Assembly (NCBI RefSeq): GCF_016617715.1
Contig: NZ_CP067225.1
Span: forward strand, 2,468,501-2,532,500
DNA length: 64,000 nucleotides
Source of the DNA: Paracoccus sp. MC1862
Lineage (GTDB): Bacteria > Pseudomonadota > Alphaproteobacteria > Rhodobacterales > Rhodobacteraceae
Direction: 5' to 3'
This document shows positions 53,395 through 64,000 of the stretch, one piece after another (the first letter of the stretch is position 1; each line of letters begins with the position of its first letter). Under the pieces are notes generated by a model that worked only from the letters and a program-made list of their open reading frames with translations, searched no databases and had not been told where the DNA came from. The position numbers and the translations under genes were made by a program.

Positions 53395-54504
53395 CTAGGG
53401 TCCTGCGGGTTCTTCCTGCGGGAAAGAGGCCACGCCGGGCGCCTTCTGGCGACGGATGGCGACATCGCGGCCGGTCACCTCGGCCAGAGCCGCAGCCAGC
53501 CGCGCGACCGAACACCGACGCCCGGCCCGGACCGCGGCTTCATGGGCCATCCGCGCGGCGGCATGGCCAAGGGCGGCGCTGCGCCCCTGCCCGGTCATGC
53601 GCGCCCAGGCGGCGGCCTCGGGGAAGGGATCGGTCAGGATCAGGTGCAGGCCGGGTCGGGCGGCTGCGGCGATCAGCGCCGGGCTGAGCGCATCACGCCG
53701 GGCGTAGATGGCGGTGGCCTCCAGCGCGGCGGCGCGGTCGTCGGACAGCGCGCCCAGGACCAGCACCGCCGCGGAGGACGGGCCCAGCGCGACCCCCGCC
53801 GCCGCGGCTTGCGCCTGCAATCCCCGATCAGGGGGGGGCCCGGCGACGGCCAGCGCGGTCAGGCCATCCTCGGCGGCGGCGGACAGAAGGGCGCGGGCCT
53901 CGGCTGCTGCCAGGGCGTTCGCCACGGCCGAAAGATCGGACAGGTCCAGCGCCGCGGGCTCGTTCGGGCGGGCGGCCCGCAGCAGGCGGCCATGGGCGCC
54001 GCCCTCGTCATTCAGGCGGGCCAGCGCGGCCTCGAACCCGGCCCGTGCGGCGGCATCCGAGGGTGGGCGCAGGAGAAGCTCAGCGCCGTGGATGCCCGCC
54101 TGCTGCTCGGCCTCGATGGCGGCCAAGGCCGAGGCCAGGGCGGCCAGTGCCTCGGGGGCGACCTCGAAGCGCGGCATCGCGGCCCCGAGGGGACGTCTGG
54201 CCGGGTCCAGCCCCTCGGCCAGCGCGCGGGTCAGCGCCGGGCCGTCATAGGCCGGGCGCCGGGGCGTGGGGACGGACAGGCGGCTCCACCCGACAGGGGG
54301 GACCACGACCCCGCCCTCGCGGCCGCCGAGAGTGTCGGCACCGTGGCAGTTGGCGCAGGGAAAGGCGCGGGCGGGCATCCGCGCGGCGCCCCCCGCCAGC
54401 ACCGCCGTCGCCCCTTCGCCCCGCTGATACAGCGCATGGCCCGCGTCCTCGGCAGCGGCGATGCCTGACGCAAGCGCGAGCAGGCCGCCAAGGACAAATC
54501 TCAT
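53395..54504 (-). CDS. c-type cytochrome domain protein of the multicopper oxidase operon
   Basis: This 369-residue protein has a Sec signal (about 1-18), a haem c site CANCH near residue 50 with a GREGGVVVPPVGWSRL segment after it, and a probable axial Met in MPRFEV near 110. A longer C-terminal region (about 130-360) alternates alpha and beta, with VLVLGALSDDRA and LHLILTDPFPEAAAW, resembling a periplasmic binding fold without a recognised name. It overlaps the SCO-like gene by 4 bases. It may take electrons from the giant oxidase operon's reaction. This is inferred. Confidence 0.78.
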   Translation of the reverse strand: MRFVLGGLLALASGIAAAEDAGHALYQRGEGATAVLAGGAARMPARAFPCANCHGADTLGGREGGVVVPPVGWSRLSVPTPRRPAYDGPALTRALAEGLDPARRPLGAAMPRFEVAPEALAALASALAAIEAEQQAGIHGAELLLRPPSDAAARAGFEAALARLNDEGGAHGRLLRAARPNEPAALDLSDLSAVANALAAAEARALLSAAAEDGLTALAVAGPPPDRGLQAQAAAAGVALGPSSAAVLVLGALSDDRAAALEATAIYARRDALSPALIAAAARPGLHLILTDPFPEAAAWARMTGQGRSAALGHAAARMAHEAAVRAGRRCSVARLAAALAEVTGRDVAIRRQKAPGVASFPQEEPAGP

Positions 54505-55082
54505 CGCGCGGGCGCCCCGGCGATGGCGAGAAGGCTTGCCGGATCGGGGATGCCGACCACGCGGGTGAACTCGCCCGAGGACAGGCTGCCCACGAGGATC
54601 GTGGGGACATGGGCCTCGGGCGGGCCGACGGGCACGCCGAAGGCCGTCATCAGCAGGCGCGTGTCGGGCACCGATCCCGCGACCCATTCCCAGGACGGCC
54701 CTGCGCCGAACTGTTCGGCCGAGACGGACATCAGCGCGGGCGTGTCGCGGGCGGGGTCGATCGACAGGGAAACGATCCGCGCCCCCGCGGCCGTCAGTTC
54801 GTCCTGGACCTCGGCCAGCACCGCGTTCGACAGGGGGCAGACCGTCCCGCAGCTTGCATAGGTGAAGCTGACCACCAGCATCGGCGCCTCTGCATAGCGG
54901 CTGACGAAGCCTTTGGTCGTCCCGAAGCGGTCCGTCACCGGCAGGTCCGGGGGCGACAGCCGCTCGGCCGGAAAGACGGCCTGCGCGGGCACGGGCGGGT
55001 GGGCATGGCCCTCATGCGCCCGGGCGGGACCGGGAAGGATCGCGGCAAGGACCAGCAGCAGGGCGTTCGCGCGGAAGATCAT
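54501..55082 (-). CDS. SCO1/SenC/PrrC-family copper chaperone
   Basis: This 193-residue protein has a Sec signal ending near ARA-HE and a thioredoxin-like SCO domain: copper-binding SCGTVCP near 78 (two Cys, three residues apart), IVSLSIDPARDTP, and the conserved His in AHVPT near 160. An N-terminal HEGHAHPP adds possible metal ligands. SCO proteins deliver copper or keep copper-site cysteines reduced. It overlaps both neighbours (ATGA), so copper loading of the giant multicopper oxidase is the likely task. Confidence 0.88.
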   Translation of the reverse strand: MIFRANALLLVLAAILPGPARAHEGHAHPPVPAQAVFPAERLSPPDLPVTDRFGTTKGFVSRYAEAPMLVVSFTYASCGTVCPLSNAVLAEVQDELTAAGARIVSLSIDPARDTPALMSVSAEQFGAGPSWEWVAGSVPDTRLLMTAFGVPVGPPEAHVPTILVGSLSSGEFTRVVGIPDPASLLAIAGAPAR

Positions 55083-56884
55083 GGGCCAAGCTCCATCACA
55101 AGCGGGGGAACGCCGGCGCTGTCCGCCCCCGAGAGGGTCACGACAAAGGTGCCTCGGGCCGGCAGGCGCAAGGTCATCCCGGAACCCCTTTCGTCCCGTT
55201 CGGGCCAATCGGCCCGCTGCAGCCATCCCGTTTCCAGCGCGGCCACGCTGAGGACGCCGGCGACGCCGGGCAGGGCCAAGCCGTCCGGCCCGACGATCCG
55301 CAAGGTGACCTGCCGCGATCCGTCGGCGGCAGGCACGGGGTCGACCTCGGCCGCGATCCGTGCGGCGGGCGCCTGCGCCCCGGGCAGGGGCAGGGTCGGG
55401 ATCTCGTGGCACAGCGTCAGCCCGCCCACGCCGGTGCTGAGCACAAGCTCGTAGCGGCCGGGGCCGGGGATGACCGCGCCCGCGCGATACCGGCCGGGGC
55501 CGGTTTCGGAAAAGCCGCGCGCCAGGATGGCGGCCGTCCGCGGCACGCCCCCGCGCAGCCGGACCGAGGCCATGGGCGGCGCGGCGCCGATCGCCGAGGT
55601 CGGCCCCACCACAAAGCCGGTGAAGCTCTGGGCGTGGATGGCCAGCGCCTCGCTGCCGCCCGGCACCGCCAGAAGAAACCCCGGTTCGGTCACGGGCCGG
55701 GACGCGGCCGCCCCCAGGGGCACCGCGCCGAGCTGCGGTTCGGTTCCGGGGCGAATGGAATCCAGCGCAAGGGTGGCCGCCTCGGACTGGTCGGCGCGCA
55801 GCAGGACCGCCATCCGGTCCAGGACCACGACTTCCGAGATGGCCGAACCATGCGCCCCCACCGTCCGGGCTAGATGCCCCCGCGCCAGGTCGATGACCGA
55901 GACCGGCCCGCCCGCGGGATCCCAGGCGAATGCCAGCCGCCCCGCCGGATCGACGGCCAGGCGCGCGACGGGACTGGCCAGCGCGATCTCGCGCGCGCTG
56001 TCGGGCGCGTCGAGGTAATGGACGGCCAGCCGGTTCTTGGTCAGACGCAGGACCGCCACGGGGCCATCGGGACCGGGCAGCAGCGCCTCGGCGGTGGCAT
56101 CCGGCGCGGGGGGCAGGACGGCCAGCGGCGTGGCGGTCGCGGCGTCCAGCACCTGCAGCCCGCCCGCCCCGTCGCGGAAAAGGATCGTGGCCGCGTCCCC
56201 CGACAGGGCCACCGCGGCCAGCGTCGCGGTCTTGTGTCCCCCGCCGTCGAAGCGGCTGATCCGCGCGGCGCCTTCCTCAAGAACCCAGACGCCCCCCGCG
56301 CCATCGGCGATCAGCGTGGTCGGGCGGTCAAGCCCCCCGGCCACGACCCGCGACCGCGCGCCGAAGGCGGTAAGCGCCCGCACCTCGCCCGCCGCGGGCA
56401 GGCTGACCAGAAAGCCCCCCCACAGCGGCGCCGCAGCCAGGGCGGCGGGCTGTTCCGGCAGGGTCGCGGCGCCGATCAGGTTGGCGCTGGCCAGGCTGAT
56501 CGCAGGATCGACCACCGTGAAGGACCCTTCCTCCGACAGGACCCCCAGCACCGGCCCGTTCAGCGACACCGCGTCGGTGGGCAGGCTTCCGGTCGAAAAG
56601 AAGGCCCGCGCCGCCTGGTGGCAGGGCAGGTTCCGCGCCGAAACCCGCCGCAGCCAGCCGGCAAGGCGCAGCCCGGCCGGCGGCTCGGGTCCGGCGTGGT
56701 TGCGGACGGAAACCGCAAGCTGGAACGGCTCGCCCGGCGGCACGGGGTCAAGCGCCCGGCCGCCGTCGTCAAGGACCTCGATGCTGGCGGTCAGCGCCGG
56801 GCGCAGCGGCTCGGGCGGGGCTTCCTGCGCGGCCACGGCGCCTGCGGCCAGCAGAAGCGGCGCGATCCAGCGCCCGCTCAGCAT
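55079..56884 (-). CDS. Exported beta-propeller (YVTN/WD40-like) protein
   Basis: This 601-residue protein has a signal peptide (about 1-19), an N-terminal beta domain (about 28-90), a repeat region of about 40-residue strands (LWGGFLVSLPAAGEVRAL, GGVWVLEEGAARISRFDGG, RLAFAWDPAGGPVSVIDLARG) typical of beta-propellers, then a C-terminal Ig-like region from about 450. A few histidines and cysteines (LPCHQAARAFF, LCHEIPTLP) could bind metal or haem, but no CxxCH is present. Its start overlaps the giant oxidase gene by 7 bases. Function is unknown. Confidence 0.72.
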   Translation of the reverse strand: MLSGRWIAPLLLAAGAVAAQEAPPEPLRPALTASIEVLDDGGRALDPVPPGEPFQLAVSVRNHAGPEPPAGLRLAGWLRRVSARNLPCHQAARAFFSTGSLPTDAVSLNGPVLGVLSEEGSFTVVDPAISLASANLIGAATLPEQPAALAAAPLWGGFLVSLPAAGEVRALTAFGARSRVVAGGLDRPTTLIADGAGGVWVLEEGAARISRFDGGGHKTATLAAVALSGDAATILFRDGAGGLQVLDAATATPLAVLPPAPDATAEALLPGPDGPVAVLRLTKNRLAVHYLDAPDSAREIALASPVARLAVDPAGRLAFAWDPAGGPVSVIDLARGHLARTVGAHGSAISEVVVLDRMAVLLRADQSEAATLALDSIRPGTEPQLGAVPLGAAASRPVTEPGFLLAVPGGSEALAIHAQSFTGFVVGPTSAIGAAPPMASVRLRGGVPRTAAILARGFSETGPGRYRAGAVIPGPGRYELVLSTGVGGLTLCHEIPTLPLPGAQAPAARIAAEVDPVPAADGSRQVTLRIVGPDGLALPGVAGVLSVAALETGWLQRADWPERDERGSGMTLRLPARGTFVVTLSGADSAGVPPLVMELGP

Positions 56885-59800
56885 GACTCGCCCGTCGAGC
56901 CGAGCGTCTCGCCCGGCTTGCGCGCGACGATGAGGCCCCAGACCCCCTGCGCCCGGCGCGTCAGCGGCCCGTCGAACCACAGCGCCACGTCCCCTGCCCG
57001 CAGGCTGGGGGTGAGCCAGGCCGAGACCGACTTGCCCGGCGCCAGCAGGGCGGCGTTCGGGAAGCCGAAGCCGGGGAACAGGTCGTCATAGGCAAAGCCG
57101 TTCATCACGAAGGCCCGCTGGCGGGCGCGGCCGCCCGGATGGACCACCCGGATCACCACCTCCTCGCCCCCGCAGGCTTCAAGGACGATCGGCTTCGGGC
57201 TAGACGCGGGGTCGAAGAAGTCGCGGGGGAATTTCACGGGGTTCAGGTCGTCCTGGGCCTCCGCGTCGATCCCCAGCCTTCGCCGCAGCATCCGGTCGAA
57301 GCCGGGGGCGGCGTAGTTCACCCCGGCCTCGCCCAGGTCATAGCTGTCGTCGCAGACAAGGCAATCGGCCACCGGGCGGACGTTCCTGACCGGGATGCCG
57401 TCGTCCCACAGCCATTTCGTGCGGCTGTCCGAGGCGTGAAGATTGAGCCCGTCCTGCCAGAACAGCACGAATTCACGCAGGCGCGTGGCAGGCAGGTCCA
57501 CCGGCATCGGACCCGGCCGGGACGCGGGCAGGATCTCGATCCGCCGCGTGGGCAGCCCGGCGCCCGCCGGGACATGACCGATGCTGCGGCGGGGGAACCC
57601 GTCCACGAACGGGGGCAGGGTCGTCCGGGCGGGGTCGGCGGCGGAAAGGTCCCAGTCCACCGGCACCACGTCGATCACCCCCATCATCCCGTGCGGGACG
57701 TGCGAGATCACGTCCGCCGTCGAGGTGACGGGCACCGGGCCGAAGGCATAGGGAATCCAGTGGATACGGTCGGTGACGGCCTGCCGGGCCTCAAGGCCGG
57801 CGGCCCGTTCCAGATCACCAACCAGATCACCAAGCAGAGCGTCGTGATCCGTGACGCAGGGAAGGGCTGCGCAGAGGCTTCCGATCACGGTGGCATCCGA
57901 TCCCGGAAGCTGCGCAGACTGGCCGGAGTCCGGGTCGGACAGCGCGATCCCGAACCGCCGCCCCATCACCTCGAACAGGAAGTCCTCGCCGGGCTGGACC
58001 TCGTGGACCCCAACAATGACGTTCGGCTTCAATCGCCCGGCAAGCTGTTTCCACGCGGGGTAAAGGTCACTGCCGTTTCCATCCTGCCCCCCGGCGGCCT
58101 GCAGCAGCGAAAGACGGAGCTGCTCGTCCAGGACGTCCGGAAGCTTGAGTTCGGGGTCCACGCGATAGCGCCCGGCAAAGAACTGCAGGATCGGGCCGAT
58201 GCTGACGCGCTTGTCCGAGGCGGGCGGCAGGGCGCCGGCGGAAAAGCCCACGCCCAGCGGCAGGTCGCGCAGCAGGTCCAGCGCCGGCAGGCCGATCCGC
58301 AGCCCCATGCGGGCCGAGGGGCGCAGCCCGCCGTCCGGCAGGCCGGGTCCGGGCCTGTCCAGGATCATCCGGCGCGGCCTGCCCTCGGGTCCGTCCGCCC
58401 GGACGGCCGGGTCGGTGTTGAGCGGCACGATCGGGGGCATCCGCGCATCCCCCAGCAGGTCGCGCAGGCCCCCGCGCCGACCCTCGTCCCGCAGCAGGTT
58501 GACGAAGCGCAGCGTCACGCAATCGCCCGCGTTCACGCGCATGACGAAAGGCTCGGGCCCCCGGTGGTAGGCCGTCTTGACCGCCTTCAGCACCGTGTCG
58601 CGGGAAAGGCCGCTCCCCCAGTTCTCGTCATGGAAGCCGACGTTCCCGCCCAGCGCCTCGGGGCGCAGCAGCGCCAGCATCAGCCCGTCCGGGTCATGGC
58701 GGCCCATCCCGTAATCGGTTCCCTCGGGCCAGATGTCGCGGGTCTGCAGCGCGACGATCACGGATTCGCTGCGGTGTGTGATGATGCCGGAAACGGGCTT
58801 TGCCGGGCAGGACAGGCCGCTTGAGGCGGGGGGGACGGGTTCGGGGGCATCGGCGGATTCAGTGGAGCTTCTGAAGGCTTGCCCCCTGGCCCCTCCCTCC
58901 CCGATCGGCCTCAGCCGGCTGCCGATCTGCCTGCCGGTCGCGGGGTCCAGAGTAGCTGCGTCGCGATAGGTCCGCACGAGGCCCCAGGCCCCGTTCCAAG
59001 TCGCATCGATCGAGCCGAAGTCGTAAAGCGAATCCGCCACCCCCTCGGGCACCCGGTGGCCGTCGCGGTCCGTGACGTCCGACGAGCGGGACGCAGCCGC
59101 TGCAGAGGACGAGGCGAAAGGTCCCGCGGGCGCCAACTCGAAGGGGCCGCTGCCCACGTCCGAACGCAGCGTGCCGCGCATCTCGAAATGCTCGGAAATG
59201 CCGACCTCCTGCACGAAGGTGAAGCCCTCGGGGTTGTCGCAATGCGCCAGCAGCCATTCGTGCCGTTCCCAGAACTCTCTGTCCGCCGGGCTCTGCGGGG
59301 GGTCGAATTCCTTGAGGCCCCGTTCCAGCCACCTGCGATAGTCCTCGGGGCGGCCGTCCGACATCGCCTCGGCGCAAAGACGGTGGCGCGTCGGACCCGG
59401 CTGCGGGTCCAGCGCCAATGCGGCGCGGGGAAAGGGCTGGTCGGCATTGCGGCGGAAGGGCTGGCCCAGCACGCGGAAGACATGCTGCACCTCCTGCGCG
59501 CCCTGGATCAGCCGGACCTGGATCGATTCGCCTTCATAGCTTTCAAGCAGAGGCGTGGCGGGGTCGCCATGGACATGGGAACTCAGCGCAAGGCCCATGT
59601 CGCCCCGGTATCCCGCAAGCTGGCGGTCGACCGAGCAGAGCGGGAAGCGGTCCCGGAGCCGGGCGCCGGGGTCCAGCGCGGCCTCGACCTGGCTGGGACC
59701 CGCGCCTTCGCGGCCGGGGCGGTCCATGCGGAAGGGCCGGCAGTCGCGGGAATGGACGCTCGCCGCATGGCTGGGCCAGGGTTGCGGCCCCGAGGGCGCA

Positions 59801-62800
59801 GGCCTTGCGCCGGGAGGGGGAAGAAACGGCCCGAAGCCGGGCGGCTCGCGTGCAGCCCTGTTCCCGTTCTCGTCATAGGTCAGTGCCGGGGGCCTCGTTT
59901 CGGGCCGGCCGGCCCGGCTTCCCCCTGCCGCGTCCTTGTCGCCGATACGCAGCGGGATCGGCTCGCCCCGGTAGTTGACGAGATAGGGGTCGTGATGATC
60001 GACCGAGATGGACTCGGGCCGCTGGGGCGGGGCGACGGGGCTTGCCAGCGCGCGGGCAGAGGCAGGGGCGGCGGGCATCCCGGCGGCGTTCCTGCGATAG
60101 GCCACAAGATGATCGGTCAGGCGCTTGAGGTCCGCCTGCGTGAGCAGGTCATTGCCCAGACCGGTGCGATGGGCGGGAGTGTCGCCGATGCGGCCCTGCG
60201 CTTCCCAGGCGGGCGGCACGTCTTCGCCGGGGGACATCCAGTGGCCGCGGGCGTCGCGCGAAAGATCGGCGCCGCAGACCGATGCCAGCGACCTCGGCGA
60301 ATTGCGCCAGTGCAGCTCGCAGGCCAGCGTGGCCATGCCGCCGAGGCTGCCGGTCGAGGACGTCCTGATCCTGCGGCGAAGCTCGGTTTCCGAGATGCGG
60401 TCGCGGGGATCGTAGAGCAGGGCGAAATCCGCGATCGCCAGGGCATATTCGCGGAAATCCGGGGTCAGCGCCCTGTAGTCCTGTTCACCGTCCTGATGCC
60501 AGAGCTGGACGGTCCGGCTTGCCCCCACCATCGAGGCGGTGCCGAAGGCCACGGTGGACAGCGCCTCGGCGGCAAGGGGCCTGTAGCATCCCGCCGGCCC
60601 CGAGGGGTCGCAGACGCTTTGAAGGCCATGGGTCAGCCGTCCGAAGCCATCGCCCGGCGGTTGCGGCACGTCGGGGTTGCTGACATCGGCCAGGGGCCGC
60701 GCCTCGGGCTCGACCACCAGCGCCGAATAGAAGCCGTGCTGCTGGATCGAGGATGGCCCGAAATGGTCGTGGGTAAAGACCGTCCGCAGCGTGCGGTCGC
60801 GGGTCCGGTCGGTGCCGGCCGCGACCGACGACAGGATCGGGTCGGCAAACCAGCGCTGCACGGTGGTCTGGAAGCGGTCGCGCGCCTCGGGCAGCGGCTT
60901 TTTCCAGATGTCATGCGCGCGGGGCTTGCCGTTCTCGCATTCCCCGTCGGTGGAACGGGTCAGGGCGCCGCCCTCGACCCCGCCACCGGGGGCGGTGGTG
61001 GCGCAGCGGCGATGCGCGATCTCGTCGGCGGCGAAGGTGCCGTCCTCGTAGTTCCAGCCGTTCCCCGAGCCGTCCGAGGAGGTCACGTCGAACTTCACCA
61101 GATGGATGTGCTGGCCGATGGTGTCGGTGGGGGTGCGGACCTGGAAATCGTCCAGCTCCAACGTTCTGGGCAGTTCGTTGGTGTGGCGGAACTCGATGCA
61201 TTCGCCCGACAGGGCGCGGAAGAAGAACGGCTCCTCGCTGTCGCTGATGCGCGGCGAGATGCGGCCCCGACCCTGCTTGTAGACGGGCGACCTTGCGCTG
61301 AGGACATTGATGCGCGCCTGCGGGTCGTGCCAGCCGGCGGTGTTGACGATCATGTCCAGTTGCACCGCCGAGACCTCGTAGCGGCGAAAGCCGGTCAGGT
61401 CGGGATCGGGCGCATAGGGGCCGCCGGCCAGCGGGTCGGTCCGGGACGGGCCGATGGCCTCGGCCGGGGGGATGCCGCAGGGATCGGCGAAAGGCGCGCC
61501 GGGGCGCGGCGGGCTGCCGTTCACGGCAAAGACCGGAGAGGCGACAGGTCCGGGGCCGGGCGCGCTGGCGGGATAGGGGGCGGCCCGGGTGGGATAGGGG
61601 GCGGCCCGGGTGGGATAGCTGCCGCTGGCGCCGGTCCCGGTGTCCAGGGTGACCTCATTGCCGTCCGGCTGCGACAGGGCCAGCGGCAGGGGGGCCGCCG
61701 CCTCTGGCCGATGGACCAGCCCGTTGTGGTGAAAGCCCATGGCCGCCCGTTCCAGCGGCGTGCCTTCGGGGTCCAGCACGCGCAGCCGGGCACGGGTCAG
61801 GTCCAGCGTCATGTCGCCCATGGCGAGCGACCGGGCCACGACCTGCCGCAGCAGCGCCGCCCGCTCGGCCGCGGGCAGGGCCGCGTCCTGCAGCCGGGCC
61901 GTGACCCCGGAAGGCAGGGGGTCGAAGGACAGTTCCCGCTCGGACCCGTCGAGCATGACATGCCGGGGCAATCCCCCGTCGAGCCAGGCCCCGGCGACAG
62001 GGCTGCGGGTGTCGACGGGGCTTTCGGAACTTTGGTCCGGTTCCGGTCCCCCGAGCCTTCGGGCGAGGTCCAGCGGCGCCTGCGGCGGGCGGTGGCCCGC
62101 CTCTCCCGCGATATAGAAGGGATAGCCCGGCATCGCCGCGACCTCGGCATCGGGGTCGAAGGCTTCCGGCGCATCCGGCTCGGCAGGTCCCGATTTGGCC
62201 TCGTCCCAGTCCGGCGCGTCGGCATAGCCGGGCAGCAGCGGCAGCGGCTCGCCCGGCAGGGGGATCACCGCGGGGATCGGGGTGCCTGCCGCGCCACGCA
62301 GCCAGTTGCCGTTCGGATCGACGCTGCCCGGCCGTCGGTCGGCGCCGGGGGGCCTGAAGCCCAGCGACAGGCCGGGTTCCGGCTGGCCGTCGGGCAGCAG
62401 GCGGGTGCCGTCCTCCAGCACGTCATGGACGCGCCACAGCGCCCACATCCCTTGCGCGAAATGCGGGTAAAGATGGCAATGGAAGATCGAATCCCCGACC
62501 GTCCGGTTGCGGTTCCCCGATCCCTGGTGGCCCCACCAGCCTTGGCCCTCGCCATTCGGCCGACGTCGCCCGCCATGGTAGATGTTGTAGCTGAATCCCT
62601 GCTGGGGCGCGACGGTCTGGCTGTCGAGATAGCTGCCCCGGTTGGGATCGTTGCCCGCGAACCATTGATGCGCGTGAAGGTGGAATACATGGGTTTCCTT
62701 CGGCCCGGCGTGGAAATTGCGGAACACCACCGGATCGTTGAGATAGGAATGATGGACGTTCGAGGGATCGTCGTCATACCATTCCAGCAACGCCGGATCG

Positions 62801-64000
62801 CCATTGGCCCAGGAGGTCAGGAAGAATTCCTCGTAAAGGCATTCGGTGCAATCGGCGGCAGGACCGATGCCCTTGCGGTTCGCCAACAGCAGCGACCCCA
62901 TCCCCGAGGCCCCGTAATTGATTGCAAATCCGTCGCGCACCCCGGCAAGCTGGCCGAAATCGCCCAGTTCCTCGAAATTCGAGGTGTAGAAGGTCTTGAG
63001 CTCGTCATGGAAGAAGACCGAGAACTCCCGGAATGCAAGAACCGGGGGCTGGGCCGGATCGCGGTTGCGAAGGCCGGGACCGGAGTCTTGGCCATCCTCG
63101 CCAGTGATCCGGCAATCGGCGTCCCCGCCGGTCGCGCCGCAATAGACGATGGCATTGAGGTCGGCATGGACGATTTCGGCGCGGGCGGCCGACAGCACGC
63201 CCGCCTGCGGTCCCTCAAGCGGGCGCAGCATGTTCAGGTAAGGGATGCCCTTGTCGTCCGCCTTCTCGTAGTCGATCCCGTCTGCGCGGCTGTGCAGCGG
63301 CCGGTCGTGGGCCGCCGGCAGCCAGGCCTTGTCGAATGCCGCTCGGCTGGTCTGGCTGCGATACCATGTGCTGCCCTTCCGCTCGGCCAGCACCGCGCCG
63401 AAAAGCCCGTGGACCAGCGAGCCGCCGTCCCCTTCGCCACCTGCGGGCGCGGCGGTCGAGGCGAAGAACATCGGCCCTTCGCGCAGGATCCGGTAGGCAC
63501 AATAGAAGTGGTCGTTCGGTCCCACGGCATCGATCCCGCGGCAGGCGGGATGGATGACCGGATTGCCGGGACCGTCCCGGGGATCGTCATGGGGCACCGG
63601 CGTCAGCCCCTGGATCACCAGGTTGAGATGCCGCGTGGCCGGCCAGTCATGCGCGCCGTCGGCGGCATGCCTGCCATCTGGCGGCTGGCAGGCGGCGTGC
63701 CCATGCGCGACGTGTCCGGTGTTCCCCTGTGACACGCCAGCCCTGACAGCGCCGCGCACAGGATCGTTTTCCCCCGTGACGCCGCAGAAATCGGCCGAGA
63801 AGTCGGGGGCGGGCTGCATCAGCAGGTTGGTCACCCGCAGCACCAGCCGGTCGCCCACATTGGCGCGCAGCGTCAGCGGGCGCGGTCGCTCGCAATCGCG
63901 CAGCCGCACCTTGCCGGCTTCCAATGCGCTGTTTTCATTGCCGTTCTCTGTTCCGGTCAGATCCTCGCACTGGGCGTTGTCCAGCAGCACCGCCCCGCCC
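56878..64000 (-). CDS. Giant multicopper oxidase (MnxG/MofA-like), 5' end outside window
   Basis: At least 2373 residues are visible and the frame is open to the window edge. Numbering from the GTG at 63990, copper motifs are HLHAHQW (His437, 439, 441), HCHLYPHFAQGM (504-515, with the type-1 Cys505, His510 and Met515), HIHLVKF (His961, 963), and HDHFGPSSIQQHG (His1074, 1076, 1085). Thus the type-1 and third sites come before the first two, a permuted order. Further cupredoxin-like domains without ligands follow to the end. Size and order fit large Mn(II)-oxidase-type proteins; substrate is inferred. It leads the operon with propeller, SCO and cytochrome genes. Confidence 0.85.
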   Translation of the reverse strand, partial: GGAVLLDNAQCEDLTGTENGNENSALEAGKVRLRDCERPRPLTLRANVGDRLVLRVTNLLMQPAPDFSADFCGVTGENDPVRGAVRAGVSQGNTGHVAHGHAACQPPDGRHAADGAHDWPATRHLNLVIQGLTPVPHDDPRDGPGNPVIHPACRGIDAVGPNDHFYCAYRILREGPMFFASTAAPAGGEGDGGSLVHGLFGAVLAERKGSTWYRSQTSRAAFDKAWLPAAHDRPLHSRADGIDYEKADDKGIPYLNMLRPLEGPQAGVLSAARAEIVHADLNAIVYCGATGGDADCRITGEDGQDSGPGLRNRDPAQPPVLAFREFSVFFHDELKTFYTSNFEELGDFGQLAGVRDGFAINYGASGMGSLLLANRKGIGPAADCTECLYEEFFLTSWANGDPALLEWYDDDPSNVHHSYLNDPVVFRNFHAGPKETHVFHLHAHQWFAGNDPNRGSYLDSQTVAPQQGFSYNIYHGGRRRPNGEGQGWWGHQGSGNRNRTVGDSIFHCHLYPHFAQGMWALWRVHDVLEDGTRLLPDGQPEPGLSLGFRPPGADRRPGSVDPNGNWLRGAAGTPIPAVIPLPGEPLPLLPGYADAPDWDEAKSGPAEPDAPEAFDPDAEVAAMPGYPFYIAGEAGHRPPQAPLDLARRLGGPEPDQSSESPVDTRSPVAGAWLDGGLPRHVMLDGSERELSFDPLPSGVTARLQDAALPAAERAALLRQVVARSLAMGDMTLDLTRARLRVLDPEGTPLERAAMGFHHNGLVHRPEAAAPLPLALSQPDGNEVTLDTGTGASGSYPTRAAPYPTRAAPYPASAPGPGPVASPVFAVNGSPPRPGAPFADPCGIPPAEAIGPSRTDPLAGGPYAPDPDLTGFRRYEVSAVQLDMIVNTAGWHDPQARINVLSARSPVYKQGRGRISPRISDSEEPFFFRALSGECIEFRHTNELPRTLELDDFQVRTPTDTIGQHIHLVKFDVTSSDGSGNGWNYEDGTFAADEIAHRRCATTAPGGGVEGGALTRSTDGECENGKPRAHDIWKKPLPEARDRFQTTVQRWFADPILSSVAAGTDRTRDRTLRTVFTHDHFGPSSIQQHGFYSALVVEPEARPLADVSNPDVPQPPGDGFGRLTHGLQSVCDPSGPAGCYRPLAAEALSTVAFGTASMVGASRTVQLWHQDGEQDYRALTPDFREYALAIADFALLYDPRDRISETELRRRIRTSSTGSLGGMATLACELHWRNSPRSLASVCGADLSRDARGHWMSPGEDVPPAWEAQGRIGDTPAHRTGLGNDLLTQADLKRLTDHLVAYRRNAAGMPAAPASARALASPVAPPQRPESISVDHHDPYLVNYRGEPIPLRIGDKDAAGGSRAGRPETRPPALTYDENGNRAAREPPGFGPFLPPPGARPAPSGPQPWPSHAASVHSRDCRPFRMDRPGREGAGPSQVEAALDPGARLRDRFPLCSVDRQLAGYRGDMGLALSSHVHGDPATPLLESYEGESIQVRLIQGAQEVQHVFRVLGQPFRRNADQPFPRAALALDPQPGPTRHRLCAEAMSDGRPEDYRRWLERGLKEFDPPQSPADREFWERHEWLLAHCDNPEGFTFVQEVGISEHFEMRGTLRSDVGSGPFELAPAGPFASSSAAAASRSSDVTDRDGHRVPEGVADSLYDFGSIDATWNGAWGLVRTYRDAATLDPATGRQIGSRLRPIGEGGARGQAFRSSTESADAPEPVPPASSGLSCPAKPVSGIITHRSESVIVALQTRDIWPEGTDYGMGRHDPDGLMLALLRPEALGGNVGFHDENWGSGLSRDTVLKAVKTAYHRGPEPFVMRVNAGDCVTLRFVNLLRDEGRRGGLRDLLGDARMPPIVPLNTDPAVRADGPEGRPRRMILDRPGPGLPDGGLRPSARMGLRIGLPALDLLRDLPLGVGFSAGALPPASDKRVSIGPILQFFAGRYRVDPELKLPDVLDEQLRLSLLQAAGGQDGNGSDLYPAWKQLAGRLKPNVIVGVHEVQPGEDFLFEVMGRRFGIALSDPDSGQSAQLPGSDATVIGSLCAALPCVTDHDALLGDLVGDLERAAGLEARQAVTDRIHWIPYAFGPVPVTSTADVISHVPHGMMGVIDVVPVDWDLSAADPARTTLPPFVDGFPRRSIGHVPAGAGLPTRRIEILPASRPGPMPVDLPATRLREFVLFWQDGLNLHASDSRTKWLWDDGIPVRNVRPVADCLVCDDSYDLGEAGVNYAAPGFDRMLRRRLGIDAEAQDDLNPVKFPRDFFDPASSPKPIVLEACGGEEVVIRVVHPGGRARQRAFVMNGFAYDDLFPGFGFPNAALLAPGKSVSAWLTPSLRAGDVALWFDGPLTRRAQGVWGLIVARKPGETLGSTGESC
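61570..61618 (-). repeat. Tandem 21-bp repeat in the giant oxidase gene
   Basis: Two identical 21-base units (61570-61590, 61591-61611) plus 7 bases of a third encode PTRAAPY repeats in a linker of the oxidase. Only one linker is affected. Confidence 0.8.

Follow-up and report, generated by a model that had tools for sequence, protein, structure and literature searches.

A four-gene cluster headed by a giant multicopper oxidase

The stretch of DNA analysed here (64,000 nucleotides of Paracoccus sp. MC1862, contig NZ_CP067225.1, positions 2,468,501 to 2,532,500; hereafter the window) carries at its end four overlapping genes on the minus strand, the first of which encodes a very large multicopper oxidase related to MnxG. 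The cluster is composed of the following elements:

56878-63999, minus strand: six-domain multicopper oxidase, residues 89-2461 of 2461 (open frame; matches to the MnxG model and PDB 9bxa)
outside the window, as far as coordinate 64263, minus strand: N-terminal 88 residues of the oxidase, including the likely signal peptide
55079..56884, minus strand: exported beta-propeller protein, 601 amino acids (shares its profile family with the propellers next to other MnxG-type oxidases)
54501..55082, minus strand: SCO1/SenC copper chaperone, 193 amino acids, with CGTVC and H158 (motifs; Pfam)
53395..54504, minus strand: exported MofC-like protein, 369 amino acids, with a CANCH haem site and a longer part (motif; domains of a homologue)

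In a preliminary description, the oxidase gene was taken to end at position 64000. Instead, its single open frame (2373 codons in the window) runs off the window end and continues in the window's own genome (G000; locus L015, identical in sequence to the window where the two overlap) for another 263 bases, as far as an ATG at L015:13264 (window coordinate 64263). The full-length protein comprises 2461 amino acids without an internal stop, and the frame of more than 2370 codons originally noted, with its motif order 3-4-1-2, is hence intact in G000. Its N-terminus, MGSLFRINYIILSIFLALLPGLGAAG, is a plausible signal peptide as judged by eye. The NCBIfam MnxG model matches the oxidase with an E-value of 3e-135 (452.1 bits), and the sequence of the solved Bacillus MnxG structure (PDB 9bxa) does so with an E-value of 8e-64; these matches, together with the open frame and the kept copper ligands, rule out chance or a frame artefact. 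With a fold match to 9bxa added, they support the kinship with MnxG that had been proposed initially.

The oxidase retains the full set of twelve type-1 and trinuclear copper ligands, distributed over two segments of the chain whose borders were set by hand after a profile repeat test:

62374..63111, minus strand: domain 2 segment, even type, holding sites 3 and 4
62668..62691, minus strand: copper site 3, HVFHLHAH, with H525, H528 and H530, domain 2 (sequence motif)
62446..62481, minus strand: copper site 4, HCHLYPHFAQGM, with H595-C596-H597, H601 and M606, domain 2 (sequence motif)
60664..61461, minus strand: domain 3 segment, odd type, holding sites 1 and 2
61102..61110, minus strand: copper site 1, HIH, with H1052 and H1054, domain 3 (sequence motif)
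60763..60771, minus strand: copper site 2, HDH, with H1165 and H1167, domain 3 (sequence motif)

From general multicopper oxidase motifs, we take H525, C596, H601 and M606 to be the type-1 ligands, and H528, H530, H595, H597 and the histidines of sites 1 and 2 to be those of the trinuclear cluster. In the profile repeat test, a two-domain cupredoxin unit occurs three times in the oxidase, and odd and even segments match their own kind only. With the type-1 ligands confined to domain 2 and the trinuclear ones shared between domains 2 and 3, the oxidase follows the rule for bacterial six-domain oxidases, for which a 2013 paper (PMC3600357) places the copper cluster at domains 2/3. By homology to Bacillus MnxG, the cluster of the Paracoccus enzyme would fall at the same position. 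The motif order, which had been regarded as permuted and unusual, is therefore the normal MnxG layout of a six-domain oxidase with its predicted cluster at domains 2/3; a true circular permutation is ruled out, since the domain test reveals an ordinary six-domain chain. A predicted model of the oxidase aligns with 9bxa over residues 26 to 1102, with sites 3 and 4 modelled at low confidence. We also considered that Bacillus MnxG might lack one type-1 ligand: the title of 9bxa denotes an H340A construct, and the aligned residue is A340 (counted by hand). Our literature search found no paper joining MnxG, cryo-electron microscopy and the trinuclear cluster.

Each partner gene starts inside the end of the preceding one (ATGCTGA at the oxidase/propeller junction, ATGA at the propeller/SCO and SCO/cytochrome junctions). 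These junctions, the motifs and a propeller model bear out the overlapping exported propeller, SCO1/SenC and CANCH cytochrome genes of the preliminary description. The SCO protein scores 45.2 bits against the Pfam SCO1-SenC cut-off of 22.8. The propeller protein has no Pfam match, and its assignment as a propeller comes from its predicted model. Likewise, the cytochrome, which carries one CANCH only, has no Pfam match of its own; its homologue in locus L038 contains Cytochrom_C and Peripla_BP_6, and the longer part is there a periplasmic-binding domain. Further support for an operon that includes a copper loader and a cytochrome comes from the recurrence of the partner order in related loci, with all three partners kept in the same order in 42 of 62. 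Downstream of the cytochrome gene, a gap of ~120 bases precedes a coiled-coil gene and an NMT1-type binding protein gene on the same strand. According to the annotation, the corresponding position is taken by choX, a phospholipase gene or an amine dehydrogenase gene in three plasmid relatives, and by a hypothetical or distant gene in the other three that we opened. The operon thus probably ends at the cytochrome gene.

Distribution and phylogenetic position of the oxidase

An oxidase match was present in 8 of 61 related genomes, all eight falling within the 37 genomes of the window's own genus (G000 included). In the order, a fragment of the window's oxidase was matched in 12 of 390 genomes, and the related frames were free of stops at ~50-70% identity over the matched parts. 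Seven of 370 genomes matched in the class of G161, as did 4 of 398 in a phylum sample searched with the MnxG model, one of them marginally. A scan of named genomes yielded at least 576 relatives among at least 594 pattern matches; 80 of the relatives were kept, and these include Nitrospira, Nitrosomonas, Rhizobiales, Methylococcaceae, Acidobacteria, Myxococcus, Chloroflexi, Geobacter, Jettenia and Methanoperedens. An old four-gene module, to which the Pseudomonas putida mnxG cluster belongs by its gene order, extends from Nitrospira to Myxococcus and Acidobacteria. The oxidase also occurs on large plasmids (13 of 16 matching records annotated as hypothetical protein; six of the 16 opened), among them those of Roseivivax marinus (L137), Paracoccus yeei (L138), Shinella sp. 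(L139), Methylobacterium sp. (L140) and Paracoccus sp. SMMA_5_TC (L141), where it bears this same annotation.

We calculated a tree from 111 rows and 383 columns by a quick method with branch support from the Shimodaira-Hasegawa-like approximate likelihood ratio test (SH-aLRT) only, after removing L062, L115 and L068 from 114 rows for gaps. The rows include no non-metal oxidases, 39 of the 106 inner branches are open, and the root and the position of 9bxa, whose end branch measures 6.8 changes per column, are unsafe. The window's oxidase falls into a 16-row clade (SH-aLRT 100) of loci from its genus, proteins named as alphaproteobacterial and one genome of the class. Neither GB-1 MnxG nor MofA appeared by name among the matches listed (120 per protein search), and for GB-1 MnxG, L135 (genome G706) therefore serves as a stand-in. 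L135 (2183 bits) and L136 (three pieces of 1156, 450 and 330 bits) are the top two rows on the MnxG model, and they group with nine other rows in a separate 11-row clade (SH-aLRT 100). No further matches were found among 15 genomes searched in the order of L135. While the kind of enzyme, its layout and the GB-1 gene order were known, the Paracoccus oxidase adds a further member in a separate alphaproteobacterial clade, for which we found no functional test.

Comparison with known systems and proposed function

The closest parallel in gene order is the mnxG operon of P. putida GB-1, which the available parts of two papers describe as oxidase, YVTN propeller, SCO and a cytochrome c with a substrate-binding part (PMC11409713, PMC8218464). 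The Paracoccus operon follows the same order and differs in having one SCO gene instead of two; a SurA-type gene that belongs to the GB-1 operon was not seen in it, the next genes being the coiled-coil and NMT1-type ones. The available text of PMC11930936 reports that Mn(II) removal is an order of magnitude slower in an mnxG deletion strain of GB-1 and that no Mn oxide was observed with an mnxG mcoA double mutant. MnxG of Bacillus sp. PL-12 (PDB 9bxa, H340A) agrees in the order of its four copper motifs as well as in sequence and fold, but it is half the length of the Paracoccus oxidase and, according to PMC5622069, works with MnxE and MnxF. As described in excerpts of PMC5566968, Leptothrix discophora MofABC likewise combines a giant oxidase with a cytochrome c/periplasmic-binding protein; MofA is likened here by description, and the peptidyl-prolyl isomerase MofB has no counterpart among the six genes scanned at the Paracoccus locus. 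The same excerpts place the MofA homologue OmpB of Geobacter sulfurreducens, also likened by description, in a cluster with a MofC homologue and an SCO gene; in contrast to the oxidase role proposed for Paracoccus, OmpB is needed for Fe(III) oxide reduction.

Collectively, we consider it probable that the four genes form an mnxG-type operon encoding an exported six-domain multicopper oxidase with its copper loader and partners, which would serve in metal oxidation, most likely of Mn(II). The ligands, the six-domain build, the operon and its conservation can be read directly from the sequence; the cluster geometry, export, copper loading and electron path that we infer from them would be as follows. 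In multicopper oxidases generally, electrons pass from the type-1 copper through a cysteine and its two flanking histidines to the trinuclear cluster. In the Paracoccus enzyme, the type-1 copper in domain 2 would accept single electrons from a metal ion, of which Mn(II) is the likeliest, and hand them through the bridge H595-C596-H597 to a trinuclear cluster set between domains 2 and 3, the presumed site of oxygen reduction to water. Copper would be supplied to the oxidase by the SCO protein, and the propeller and the cytochrome-binding protein may, as exported partners, help with assembly, handle the substrate or transfer electrons. Mn(II) is put forward as the likeliest donor because the GB-1 operon of the same order drives Mn oxidation; taken by itself, this assignment is tentative, though not far from evenly balanced.

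Several results weigh against manganese oxidation. At 452.1 bits, the oxidase misses the equivalog threshold of the NCBIfam model (NF041487, at least 3100 bits), which is passed at no place in the 61 relatives; in our sequence tree, its clade stands apart from the rows that most resemble GB-1 MnxG, with GB-1 itself compared through the stand-in L135 and published descriptions; and the oxidase family occurs in anaerobes. The latter two points would suit the same architecture acting on another substrate, as an exported enzyme that oxidises Fe(II), Cu(I) or organic compounds, or as an electron-transfer protein like Geobacter OmpB. We regard this as the less probable view, albeit the strongest of the alternatives, since those relatives sharing this motif order for which we encountered experiments are Mn oxidases (GB-1, Bacillus) and the operon partners are the same as in GB-1. 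Paracoccus is genetically tractable, and manganese oxidation by the clade and the role of the conserved propeller are therefore directly testable.

Insertion sequences and divergent peptidase genes upstream of the oxidase

Beyond the window, at L015:13722-16325 (window coordinates 64721-67324), two integrase pieces flank an IS110-family transposase gene, an arrangement that we interpret as one element interrupted by another. The nearer integrase piece ends ~460 bp before the ATG of the oxidase. Scans for promoters and terminators carried little information, with only one weak promoter-like site in the upstream region. These features could indicate that this strain carries the operon as a decaying relic, the insertion sequences having removed a divergent gene and perhaps the promoter. 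We consider this improbable: the oxidase frame, with its 2461 codons, and the three frames after it are uninterrupted, no ligand has been lost, the overlaps are intact and the related frames, at the identities given above, are likewise free of stops. Past the insertion sequences (L015:17539-19438), genes for a PKHD-type 2OG-Fe(II) oxygenase and a TonB-dependent receptor resemble iron-uptake neighbours.

In related loci, the divergent gene adjacent to the oxidase frequently encodes a peptidase. This is the case at the Pfam cut-off in 17 of 23 loci, 13 of the trypsin type and 4 of the caspase type (L016-L022, L137-L139, L141, L143-L146, L148 and L149). The 23 loci are L015-L022 and L137-L151, with L152 outside the count; the 12 oxidase-positive genomes of the order comprise nine newly retrieved ones, G000, G012 and G992, the last being excluded from the locus comparison because its oxidase match lies at a contig edge. 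A papain-type part exceeds the Pfam cut-off in 6 of the 13 trypsin-type loci (L019, L020, L143-L146) and does not reach it in L137 and L141. Behind the trypsin gene of Shinella (L139) lies one for a subtilase; L140 shows a sub-threshold zincin match only; and no peptidase lies beside the oxidase in the remaining L015, L142, L147, L150 and L151. By our own residue assignment, a putative His, Asp, Ser triad is present in 12 of 12 aligned trypsin-type proteins and putative papain Cys, His and Asn in 10 of the 12. Long trypsin-papain homologues (at least 626 of 901 residues matched) were found in 5 of the 61 genomes, all five oxidase-positive and with the homologue at the oxidase. The caspase type occurs in 3 of the 61, twice beside the oxidase. 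The search of these genomes found neither type in the window's own genome, where insertion sequences occupy the site.

Our literature search found no paper on a pairing of oxidase and peptidase, a linkage that we take to be real. Conceivably, though doubtfully, the MnxG-type operon clade of Rhodobacterales and some Rhizobiaceae forms a functional pair with a divergent peptidase of exchangeable catalytic type (trypsin-papain, trypsin plus subtilase, or caspase with a partner of 600 amino acids), metal oxidation being placed under proteolytic control or used in a conflict or cell-death response; the window's copy would then have lost its peptidase to the insertion sequences. Quite unlikely, in our estimate, is that the oxidase of this clade was recruited into a divergent-peptidase system and plays a role other than that of GB-1 MnxG. 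The frequency of the adjacent peptidase and the restriction of the long trypsin-papain homologues to oxidase-positive genomes speak for such recruitment. Against it stand the loci without a peptidase, the window's genome among them, the unclear case of L140, a caspase-type gene in a genome without an oxidase match (G006) and partial papain matches in the oxidase-negative genomes G024 and G025. Moreover, the peptidases have no signal peptide as judged by eye and may therefore never meet the oxidase.

PADLOC returned a generic caspase match and a weak RT-protease match for the neighbours. The caspase-type gene is followed by a gene for a protein of 598-605 amino acids (L021:15985-17799, L022:16952-18769, L148:3643-5457, L149:4039-5835 and L152:11585-13396), which in the two copies scanned (L021, L148) has no Pfam match at the cut-off; the L021 copy gave a weak Peptidase_M4 match of 15.4 bits. 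In L152 (G006), the caspase-type gene and this partner adjoin a gene, presumably tRNA-dihydrouridine-synthase-like, that resembles one in L021, and a sigma-54 activator gene stands where L021 has the oxidase operon, which suggests that the operon was gained or lost at one site.
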